This document shows, piece by piece, positions 3,551 to 7,753 of a DNA stretch of 64,000 bases. The notes under the pieces were generated by a model. The model was not told the origin of the DNA. It saw nothing but the letters and a program-made list of their open reading frames with translations, and ran no database searches. A program made the position numbers and the translations under genes. Source of the stretch: Sphingomonas hengshuiensis (GTDB taxonomy: Bacteria > Pseudomonadota > Alphaproteobacteria > Sphingomonadales > Sphingomonadaceae); NCBI RefSeq assembly GCF_000935025.1, contig NZ_CP010836.1:5126001-5190000 (forward strand), given 5' to 3'. Each line of letters starts with the position of its first letter. The first letter of the stretch is position 1.

Positions 3551-4060
3551 TCAGTCCTCGCGCACGGGGTACGGATCATGCAGGCCAAGCTGGTCGAGCG
3601 CGGCGCGCTCCATGTCTTCCATCGCCTCGGCCTCGGCGTCCCCCATATGGTCATAGCCTAGCAGATGCAGCATGCCGTGGACAATCAGGTGCGTGGCATG
3701 ATCCTGCACAGAAACCTCACGCTCCACCGCCTCGCCCGCACAGACGCCGTGCGCAAGAACGATGTCGCCGAGCAATACTTCGCCGTCGTCGCTGTTCTGC
3801 GTCACGCTTTCCAGCAGATCGGGCTGGATCATCGGGAAGGACAGGACGTTGGTCGGCTTGTCCTTGTCGCGATATTGCCGGTTGAGTGCCTGGACCTCGT
3901 CATCCGAGGTCAGCCGTACCGCGACTTCGATCGCGGTCGGCCAGCCGAGCCATTCGGCATAGGGGGTCTGGCGGATCGCGGTTTCGACGGCACGCGCGGC
4001 GAGCGCGTCCCAATCGAGTTCGGGCCAATCGGCTTCGCGAAGCGCGGCGACGTCAAGCAT
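3551..4060 (-). CDS. ybeY: Endoribonuclease YbeY (rRNA maturation factor)
   Basis: A 169-residue protein. The zinc-binding motif of the family is complete: His128, His132 and His138 in VHGMLHLLGYDH. The substrate-binding arginine region NRQYRDKDKPTNVLSFP lies at residues 60-76. YbeY acts in 16S rRNA 3-prime processing and ribosome quality control. The frame continues upstream into vapC, but the ATG at 4060 matches the usual N-terminus. It also overlaps the vapC stop by one base (TGATG), pointing to translational coupling with the toxin-antitoxin pair inserted just upstream. Confidence 0.92.
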   Translation of the reverse strand: MLDVAALREADWPELDWDALAARAVETAIRQTPYAEWLGWPTAIEVAVRLTSDDEVQALNRQYRDKDKPTNVLSFPMIQPDLLESVTQNSDDGEVLLGDIVLAHGVCAGEAVEREVSVQDHATHLIVHGMLHLLGYDHMGDAEAEAMEDMERAALDQLGLHDPYPVRED

Positions 4061-4458
4061 CAGGCAAGGTCCGTGTGAGAGAAGTCGTCGCCCTTGTAGA
4101 GCAGGCGGGCGCCATGGGTCTTGGCGCAGGCATAGGCGAAGCAATCCCCCATGTTGAGACGGGCAGGATGGCCGGAGCGCTTGCCGTAGCGGAACCAAGA
4201 CTCAAGGGCCAACCTGCATTCCCCCATACCGATGGGAACGAGATCGAAGCGATTGGACTCTGCGAAATCGGAGACTATCATTTCGGCGTGTTGGGTCGAG
4301 GTACGAAGCCGCCGGGCCAGGGCAACGGCGCTTTCCCAATGGCAAATCGGAGACCAGAGGCGCCTGGGATACTCGTCCAGGACATCAGCCAATTTTTGCC
4401 AATCCTCTTCTAAACCCAAAATTGCGACGATCGCTGACGCATCAACGAACCAGGTCAC
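4060..4458 (-). CDS. vapC: PIN-domain ribonuclease toxin, VapC family
   Basis: A 132-residue PIN-domain protein with GTG start at 4458. The acidic residues expected for the Mg-dependent active site are all present: Asp6 (FVDASA), Glu42 (CHWESAV), Asp105 (NMGDCFAYACAK) and Asp124/Asp125 (YKGDDF). VapC toxins cleave RNA, often initiator tRNA or rRNA. The GTG overlaps the antitoxin stop by four bases (GTGA), the normal coupled arrangement for such pairs. The pair sits between phoH and ybeY, which are adjacent in most relatives. The RNA target cannot be read from the sequence. Confidence 0.9.
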   Translation of the reverse strand: MTWFVDASAIVAILGLEEDWQKLADVLDEYPRRLWSPICHWESAVALARRLRTSTQHAEMIVSDFAESNRFDLVPIGMGECRLALESWFRYGKRSGHPARLNMGDCFAYACAKTHGARLLYKGDDFSHTDLA

Positions 4459-4715
4459 AGGTCGTCCGAGAGCGAATCAAAAAAAGCCTTGTCAGCTGGC
4501 GGCCCAAGCGTTGGCGGCAGCGGATGCCGTTCCCAGAAATCAATCATGCGTTCGCGCAAGGGGCGGCGATCCTCGACGGGCGGCGGCGCGGCGCGACGCT
4601 CCAGTTCGTGGCGCAGCGCCAGCTTGACCGCAGCAGTCTTGGTGAGCCCACGCTCTGCTGCGAGCCGCTCCGCGAGCGCGTTGGCTTCCTGATCCTTGAT
4701 ATACAGCGATGCCAT
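4455..4715 (-). CDS. vapB: VapB-type antitoxin (Rv0623-like transcription factor family)
   Basis: An 86-residue protein. The N-terminal half (MASLYIKDQEANALAERLA, then TKTAAVKLALRHELER) matches the ribbon-helix-helix-like antitoxins of the PSK/Rv0623 family that pair with PIN toxins. The C-terminal tail, with DFWERH near residue 60 and ending DSLSDDL, is the likely toxin-binding arm. An earlier in-frame ATG exists at 4769, inside phoH, but ATG 4715 has GGAG just upstream and matches the family start. Two identical palindromes lie immediately upstream (4730-4760) and are the probable autoregulatory operator. Confidence 0.88.
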   Translation of the reverse strand: MASLYIKDQEANALAERLAAERGLTKTAAVKLALRHELERRAAPPPVEDRRPLRERMIDFWERHPLPPTLGPPADKAFFDSLSDDL

Positions 4716-4729
4716 GCCGCGTCTCCGAT

Positions 4730-4760
4730 GGGATATCCCGAACATAGGCCGGGATATCCC
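4730..4760 (-). promoter_or_regulatory. Twin-palindrome operator of the vapBC pair
   Basis: The perfect palindrome GGGATATCCC occurs at 4730-4739 and again at 4751-4760, 21 bp apart, i.e. two helical turns on the same DNA face. The block fills the 50 bp between the phoH stop and the vapB ATG. Paired palindromes next to the start are the usual binding pattern of antitoxin or toxin-antitoxin complexes, so autoregulation is inferred. A separate promoter for the pair probably overlaps it. Confidence 0.75.
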
Positions 4761-4765
4761 GTGCT

Positions 4766-5791
<1,026 letters not shown>

Positions 5792-5971: not shown

Positions 5972-7282
5972 CTAGGCGGCGACGCGGGCCCGCTGCACCC
6001 CGCTCAGCGAATTGGGGTCGGCGCGGACGATTTCGACGTCGATCAGGTCGCCGATCTTCGCATCGGTCAGCAGATGGACCGATTGCAGCCAGGGCGACTT
6101 GCCGAGCATCTGGCCGGGGAGCTTGCCCGTCCGTTCGATCAACACCGGGCAGGTCCGCCCCGCCGTCGCGGCGTTGAAGGCGGCCTGATGCCGGTTGAGC
6201 GATGCCTGGAGCCGCTGGAGGCGCTCGTCCATCACCTCCGCCGCGATCTGATCGGCCATGTCGGCGGCGGGGGTGCCGGGGCGGGGGCTGTATTTGAAGC
6301 TGAAGCACTGGGCATAGCCGACCGCGTCGACGAGGCTGAGCGTCGCTTCGAACTCGGCATCGGTTTCGCCTGGGAAGCCGACGATGAAGTCGCCCGACAG
6401 CGCGATGTCGGGCCGCGCGGCGCGGACGCGGTCGAGGATGCGCAGGTACGAGTCGCGGCTGTGGCTGCGGTTCATCGCCTTGAGCACCCGGTCGCTGCCC
6501 GACTGGACCGGCAAATGCAGGAACGGCATCAGCTTTTCGACCTCGGCATGCGCGCGGATCAGCCCTTCGCGCATGTCGTTGGGGTGGCTGGTGGTATAGC
6601 GGATGCGCGCCAGCCCCTCGATCCGGTCGAGCGCGGCGATCAGCCCGTGGAGCCCGGTGCCCTCGGCATCGTCCCATGCATTGACGTTCTGCCCCAGCAG
6701 CGTGATCTCACGCGCGCCGGCATCGACCAGCGCCTTTGCCTCGTCGACGATCGCCGCGAAGGGGCGGCTGACTTCGGCGCCGCGGGTATAGGGGACGACG
6801 CAATAGGTGCAGAATTTGTCGCACCCTTCCTGCACGGTCAGGAAGGCCGAGGGGCCGACCTTGCGTCGCCGGGGGAGCGCGCCGAACTTGCTGGCGATCG
6901 GCATGTCGGTGTCTAGCGCGGCCTTGCCCGCCGCGGCATCGGCGACGAGCTGGGGGAGGTTGTGATACGCTTGCGGGCCGACGACGACGTCGACCTTGGC
7001 GCGGCGGACGATCTCCTCGCCCTCGGCCTGCGCGACGCAGCCGGCGACGGCGATCATCGGGTCCTTGCCATGTTTGCGCAGCCGGCCGATGTCCGAATAG
7101 ACTTTCTCGGTCGCCTTTTCGCGAATGTGGCAGGTGTTGAGCACCACGAGATCGGCACTGCCCGCGTCGGCGGCGGCGGTCAGGCCCTGCGCGGCCATCA
7201 ACTCGGCCATGCGCTCGCCGTCATAGACGTTCATCTGGCAGCCGAACGACTTGACGTGATAGGTTTTGGGGGATGGTTTCAT
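5972..7282 (-). CDS. miaB: tRNA-2-methylthio-N6-dimethylallyladenosine synthase MiaB
   Basis: A 436-residue radical-SAM methylthiotransferase. The UPF0004 domain carries three cysteines ([24 protein letters not shown]). The radical-SAM cluster motif is CDKFCTYC, near residue 155. A TRAM domain closes the protein ([17 protein letters not shown]). It methylthiolates position 37 of tRNAs that read UNN codons. It is the first gene of the minus-strand miaB-phoH-(vapBC)-ybeY-corC run. Confidence 0.95.
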
Positions 7283-7308: not shown

Positions 7309-7336
7309 GTCATGCTGAACTTGTTTCAGCATCCAA
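7309..7336 (+). repeat. Left 28-bp inverted repeat of the GIY-YIG unit
   Basis: It begins GTCATGCTGAAC and ends TTTCAGCATCCAA. It is identical, inverted, to 7726-7753 with no mismatch over 28 bases, and contains an 8-bp stem with a 5-base loop. Confidence 0.9.
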
Positions 7337-7356
7337 GGCGCGGCAAATTTGCGGCC

Positions 7357-7677
7357 ATGCGAGAGCGGACTCCATGCGTCTACATTTTGGCGAGTCGGCC
7401 TCGGGGGACGCTGTATATCGGAGTCACGTCTGACCTTCCTGGCCGACTATATCAGCATCGCAATGGGGTAACCGCCGGATTCGTCGCGCGCTACAACGTC
7501 CAAAGGCTTGTCTATTTCGAGACCTGCGAAGCGATGGACGGCGCAATTGCACGAGAGAAACAGTTGAAGCGCTGGCATCGCGAGTGGAAGCTCAACTTGA
7601 TCGAGCGCGCCAATCCCGAATGGAATGATCTGGCCTCGGGGCTGGGCATTGCCGAGCCACTGTCTCCTGGAGATTAG
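7357..7677 (+). CDS. GIY-YIG nuclease family protein
   Basis: A 106-residue single-domain GIY-YIG protein. The signature strands are CVYILAS (residues 7-13) and TLYIGVTSD (18-26). An Arg/His helix follows (GRLYQHRNG), and the putative catalytic Glu lies in AIAREKQLKRW. The C-terminus NLIERANPEWNDL is the usual end of this small-nuclease subfamily. The ATG at 7357 was chosen because it immediately precedes the family N-terminus; the frame extends upstream through the left repeat. Its position inside a perfect inverted-repeat pair suggests a homing or repeat-processing role, which is unproven. Confidence 0.85.
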   Translation: MRERTPCVYILASRPRGTLYIGVTSDLPGRLYQHRNGVTAGFVARYNVQRLVYFETCEAMDGAIAREKQLKRWHREWKLNLIERANPEWNDLASGLGIAEPLSPGD

Positions 7678-7725
7678 ATTTGGTGGGGCTGGTACGCATC
7701 GACCGACGGGCATCCGGTGTGCGGG

Positions 7726-7753
7726 TTGGATGCTGAAACAAGTTCAGCATGAC
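7726..7753 (-). repeat. Right 28-bp inverted repeat of the GIY-YIG unit
   Basis: Exact reverse complement of 7309-7336. It lies 48 bases past the nuclease stop, and plsC ends 24 bases further on the other strand. Confidence 0.9.

Follow-up and report, generated by a model that had tools for sequence, protein, structure and literature searches.

A small GIY-YIG nuclease gene between inverted CGTC REP hairpins points to a candidate enzyme partner for a dispersed bacterial repeat class

What might a small nuclease gene be doing between two identical hairpins in inverted orientation? In REP/RAYT and REPIN systems, an enzyme gene is bounded by its own dispersed hairpins, the types of enzyme and hairpin match, and a few genes exist alongside many gene-less dimers. 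An earlier note on a 64,000-nt stretch of the Sphingomonas hengshuiensis chromosome (NZ_CP010836.1; hereafter the window) drew the analogy with RAYT transposases and their REP elements for a GIY-YIG gene, and proposed that the nuclease recognises or spreads its own repeat. Here, we consider this proposal in light of the unit itself (Table 1), its repeat family, its relatives, and the sites at which it resides.

Table 1. Features of the GIY-YIG unit, given in positions of the window
Feature	Position	Strand	Description	Basis
Whole unit	7309..7753		inverted CGTC-REP pair enclosing the nuclease gene, 445 bp	direct reading, repeat search, orthologous sites
Left REP arm	7309..7336	+	TGTC-tagged hairpin with a CCA tail, 8-bp stem, and 5-nt loop	repeat search, folding
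GIY-YIG nuclease gene	7357..7677	+	106 aa	Pfam PF01541, conserved residues, structure model
Right REP arm	7726..7753	-	tag CGTC, identical to the left arm but inverted	repeat search, shuffles

The perfect 28-bp inverted arms, each a hairpin, that had been described for this unit were recovered by direct reading, repeat search, and folding, and exactly one small GIY-YIG gene lies between them, as had also been stated. Specifically, the repeat search returned arms of 33 nt at 94% identity (7309-7341 and 7721-7753), of which the outer 28 nt are identical, and a single arm folded alone into an 8-bp stem with a 5-nt loop. The window holds two occurrences of the 26-bp core of the arm, and 0 of 100 dinucleotide shuffles contained it; beyond this common core the tags differ by a letter (TGTC on the left, CGTC on the right). 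The protein matched PF01541 at 56.3 bits (cut-off 22.6) and belongs, by this score and its conserved residues, to the GIY-YIG nuclease superfamily. Across 32 aligned relatives Y9, Y20, G22, E67, and N86 were invariant and R30 nearly so, and these we take to be the catalytic residues. An AlphaFold2 model had a mean pLDDT of 91.1 and a pTM of 0.84. An NCBIfam search assigned no family to the protein and a PDB sequence search gave weak matches only (best E 0.05). The reading frame is open from 7273 and runs through the left arm, and alignment with homologues favours the ATG at 7357 as the best start. Because dN/dS was ~0.11 against the genes of G593 and G494 (dS 1.7 and 2.0), purifying selection on the gene is likely. 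The unit is intergenic at this site, which rules out a homing endonuclease within a host gene. Elsewhere in the window, a PIN-domain protein and the PSK_trans_fac (Rv0623-like) protein upstream of it (4060-4769, minus strand) make up a VapBC-like toxin-antitoxin pair by Pfam.

The arms belong to a dispersed family. With up to three mismatches allowed, the 26-bp core was found 65 times in the 5.23-Mb genome (45 exact; 0 for the reversed control), and among these copies alone 18 inverted pairs stood at an identical 63-bp offset. Once variant arms were allowed, the 46 loci examined in this genome held 36 distinct gene-less 89-bp inverted dimers, which are REPIN-like, and the window pair was the sole pair seen to enclose a GIY-YIG gene. 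The outer four stem pairs were kept in 63 of 70 arms, with changes matched across the stem (53 ATGC/GCAT, 9 ACCC/GGGT, and 1 GCCC/GGGC), with a non-Watson-Crick position in the other 7. Additionally, we observed an IS110-family transposase element (PF01548, PF02371; locus L248 of this genome, 11466-12572) at a disrupted hairpin of the window family. The end sequence of this element interrupts the hairpin at seven loci (L009, L013, L017, L036, L043, L047, and L056), and the transposase was identified at one locus only among those with the shared end sequence.

In tag, stem, loop, CCA tail, copies, and dimers, these repeats are members of family 2 of the CGTC REP superfamily as set out in the accessible part of Di Nocera et al. 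2013 (PMC3733652), which likewise has a CGTC/TGTC tag, an 8-bp stem, a 5-nt loop (family 2), a CCA tail, dimers in opposite orientation, and several families per genome. According to the same part of that account, a dedicated transposase seems to be missing for CGTC elements, whose units flank none of the RAYT or IS200 transposase genes there; GIY-YIG is absent from that text, whereas here a GIY-YIG gene is paired with CGTC REPs. The accessible part of the RepRanger paper of 2025 (PMC12306157) mentions no nuclease, RAYT, or transposase.

The window gene has company in its own genome. Six PF01541 matches were present, one within a 645-aa frame that is taken to be UvrC, and no two of the five small GIY-YIG genes share a repeat family. 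The four paralogues of the window gene adjoin hairpin families of their own, three on both sides and the gene at 4943785 on one side only. Sorted by eye, the paralogue repeats comprised 25 of the GGCGAARGCC type, 11 of the GGGCTTGACCC type, 15 of the GGCCTTGTGCC type with its variants, and 5 others, 56 all together, as well as 54 of the TGACGAAAGTCA/CAGCGAAGGCTG type, one being of the GGCGAAAGCC type; reversed-pattern controls gave 0 for both counts. A hairpin scan of a 464-kb sample of the genome gave 34 hairpins, many by chance, and the CGTC REPs recognised by eye in that sample all belonged to families whose hairpins flank one of the resident GIY-YIG genes. Beside the gene at 4943785, a local array of GGCCTTGTGCC-type dimers, ~189 bp apart, occupies C1:4943017-4943745.

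Protein type and hairpin type were compared in the 50 of 74 loci from this genome and its relatives whose gene codes for 85 aa or more and has a usable hairpin at each side. Arm likeness was 0.87 within a gene's two arms against 0.60 between genes (permutation p ~1e-4), and protein identity tracked hairpin identity (Mantel r 0.478, and 0.308 for non-syntenic pairs; p 2e-4 each); by these sequence comparisons, hairpin type follows nuclease type. A profile built from eight proteins flanked by TGAACT hairpins ranked all eight above all others. When each was left out in turn, 7 of the 8 remained above the best other protein (162.8) and the window protein dropped to 157.3; a ninth TGAACT-flanked locus outside the training set, L084, reached 137.8 only. 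Proteins of at least 165 bits were present in 31 of 295 genus genomes, and the loci examined, for 30 of these 31, comprised the 8 training genes and 22 new ones. In 21 of the 22 held-out loci, TGAACT hairpins (up to three substitutions) flanked the gene on both sides, the exception being G465, which has another hairpin type there and zero TGAACT repeats genome-wide. Four of the 22 were in neighbourhoods outside the training set, and 3 of these 4 fit the TGAACT prediction. At least two TGAACT repeats occurred in 29 of the 31 genomes with the protein versus 58 of 264 without it (Fisher p 2.6e-15, with species treated as independent). What speaks against strict dependence is that 14 of these 264 genomes, all lacking a protein that reaches 165 bits, have at least 20 TGAACT repeats. 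Such TGAACT-rich genomes include G009, G480, G517, G553, and G662; possibly they hold relics or are served by a diverged GIY-YIG protein.

The number of CGTC repeats, counted with a degenerate pattern, had a median of 43 in 43 relatives with a GIY-YIG match versus 1 in 18 without (p 3e-7). The contrast gave p 0.01 outside the genus and p 0.016 within it, where only 3 genomes are without a match. Exceptions exist in both directions: G015 (83% complete) and G045 have 28 and 46 CGTC repeats, respectively, with no GIY-YIG match, and G038, G025, G053, and G058 have a match together with counts of 0 or 1, which perhaps stem in part from hairpins outside the pattern.

How general the arrangement is was examined in three sets of loci: the 74 already mentioned, which are the best 76 of 106 matches minus one match at a contig end and one tandem copy; 30 from a Pseudomonadota-wide search, in which 120 of 398 genomes had a match; and the best 80 of 572 confirmed loci in a named genome collection. 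The sets overlap a little: at least 2 loci of the second set and at least 4 of the third recur in the first. Under one common rule, strict CGTC hairpins were located close to both ends of the gene in 42/74, 19/30, and 47/80 loci, compared with 1/368 control open reading frames, so that the RAYT/REP-like layout proposed earlier for this unit proves both sound and general. Near either end the counts were 62/74, 26/30, and 65/80, compared with 17/368 controls; among controls of up to 200 aa they were 8/92 for either end and 1/92 for both ends, all controls being drawn from the sample of this genome. An earlier, stricter rule gave 41/74, 19/30, and 1/370 controls at both ends; for the third set, a rule that allowed loops of up to 9 nt gave 52/80. 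This earlier control rule skipped the window gene because its frame begins at 7273, and, under the common rule, the gene at 1357131 in this genome has a hit at a single side, since its upstream dimer is read by the finder as one long hairpin. No strict CGTC hairpin lay near either end in 12 of the 74 loci, and 10 of these 12 show another hairpin foot. A GIY-YIG subgroup (L101, L104, L107, L111, L116, L120, L122, L123, L126, and L127) has a foot of GTTC, GTGC, or ACCA-like sequence, not GTCA, perhaps reflecting a shifted tag specificity. By the record titles of the third set, hairpins on both sides were found in Ignavibacteria, Bacteroidetes, Omnitrophota, and Dehalococcoidia, as well as in Deltaproteobacteria, candidate phyla, and a Neisseria MAG, and none were found at loci titled Spirochaetes (L184), Campylobacteraceae (L191), and Chloroflexi (L237).

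We then turn to the site itself, which lies between miaB and an acyltransferase gene. Among the best 30 of 295 genomes, of which partial G644 was dropped and 29 were classified, the unit with its gene was present in 3 (S. hengshuiensis, G593, and G551). One genome, G458, had the arms around a gene with an internal deletion, and 4 (G580, G608, G620, and G621) had a gene-less dimer of the same repeat, interrupted by another repeat in G620 and G621. The other 21 had no element of the window type, being empty or holding other sequence or other REP types. These states vary by the unit, and the flanks are too diverged for target-site duplications to be read. The earlier note had set against its idea of a self-propagating unit a repeat that occurs mostly without GIY-YIG genes, at sites that never differ by the unit; the sites do differ in this way, and the repeat is indeed mostly gene-less in this genome (36 dimers in the loci examined versus one unit), as is expected of a REPIN-like family. 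A similar CCAAA-CC stretch lies directly left of the element in S. hengshuiensis (G000), G593, and the four dimer genomes, and favours one old insertion at the site. Since the states are scattered on the tree of flanking genes, old presence with repeated loss and repeated gain are indistinguishable. A second, different dimer is full in one of G620 and G621 and a single palindrome in the other, 110 bp apart, so dimers can collapse, as they would also by simple slippage. The window-type gene was found in 30 genomes in 7 neighbourhoods; it appears to move rarely and to be inherited mostly vertically, as a RAYT gene with its few copies is.

A 2025 paper in Nature Communications reportedly describes Ssn proteins, GIY-YIG site-specific single-strand nucleases with cognate NTS repeats, whose role in Neisseria is said to be the modulation of natural transformation. 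The pair described here resembles Ssn, as reported, in its small GIY-YIG protein and in a cognate repeat with many genomic copies (65, with type matching); a gene-in-dimer unit or a deletion series is not known to have been described for Ssn. That paper may already cover the pairing of GIY-YIG genes with repeats; among the papers listed by our literature search, judged by titles and the starts of abstracts, none concerned a pairing of GIY-YIG with REP repeats, which does not establish its absence from print. The suggestion of the earlier note that this may be the least described system in the window is thus partly right, given that the repeats form a published superfamily and that the pairing was reportedly published in 2025.

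We consider it probable that the gene and its hairpins form a resident nuclease-repeat pair. The protein would recognise its own hairpin, likely as single-stranded DNA, and nick it; the gene-bearing unit would be shortened to a gene-less dimer; and the dispersal and turnover of dimers would have relied on the nuclease in trans. Recognition of the hairpin is suggested by the compensatory stem changes and the type matching, and single-strand nicking by analogy with what is reported of Ssn, while dispersal by the nuclease is the least certain part. More tentatively, GIY-YIG units may be master copies, in which case the hairpin would be nicked in single-stranded DNA, internal deletion would yield dimers, and these would be copied in trans elsewhere.

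A less likely but serious alternative is a cognate nuclease that does not spread its repeats, which would limit or steer transformation and recombination by cutting them in single strands, either incoming or replicating, the repeats being retained as targets and multiplied by other means. This would match the role reported for the Neisseria nuclease and a gene that seldom moves (30 genomes, 7 neighbourhoods), and the homologue in the Neisseria MAG, to which the window protein is 58% identical over 91 aa and which may not be the characterised Ssn protein, sits among CGTC repeats. Alone, however, it leaves the gene-in-dimer arrangement, the deletion series, and the 65 dispersed copies unexplained. 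Had the gene instead invaded a dimer already in place, in the manner of a free-standing homing endonuclease, and had dimers not arisen by deletion from the unit, the scattered site states would fit equally, since they accommodate either direction; the internally deleted gene between arms in G458 renders this improbable. It is very improbable that some other mobile enzyme spread the repeats and that small GIY-YIG genes just happen to sit in intergenic stretches rich in repeats: a Y1_Tnp fragment does persist in this genome (positions 3-63 of 121, one stop), where no intact RAYT was found, and 11 of 61 genomes, with S. hengshuiensis among them, have Y1_Tnp matches, but both the matching of protein and hairpin types and the control frames (1/368, or 1/92 at up to 200 aa) speak against it. 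A RAYT element is ruled out, given the GIY-YIG enzyme, the CGTC tag, and the lack of an intact Y1 enzyme in this genome. Finally, that the hairpins serve only as terminators or mRNA stabilisers, for which their closeness to both gene ends might argue, is scarcely credible, as they also lie upstream, vary in type between paralogues, and have 65 dispersed copies, which rule out a terminator-only reading.

The resident nuclease-repeat pair that we prefer is like REP/RAYT and REPIN systems in having a gene within its own dispersed hairpins, type matching, few genes, and many short gene-less dimers, but falls outside REP/RAYT, having a GIY-YIG rather than a Y1 (HUH) enzyme and a CGTC rather than a GTAG tag. 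The RAYT-like layout is real, with another enzyme, and points to the GIY-YIG nuclease as the enzyme that had been missing for a common bacterial repeat class. With nuclease type matching repeat type in many lineages, and five pairs in this genome, the question of the CGTC REP enzyme becomes testable. Should the Ssn paper cover alphaproteobacterial pairs, what would still be new here is the unit with its gene inside a dimer, the series of deletion states, the presence of five pairs in one genome, and the connection with CGTC REPs. If GIY-YIG units are master copies, repeats would have a route of dispersal with neither an HUH nor a DDE enzyme, and several orthogonal pairs, five here, could exist per genome. 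If the enzyme does disperse its repeat, the REP/RAYT arrangement would have been invented twice, independently.
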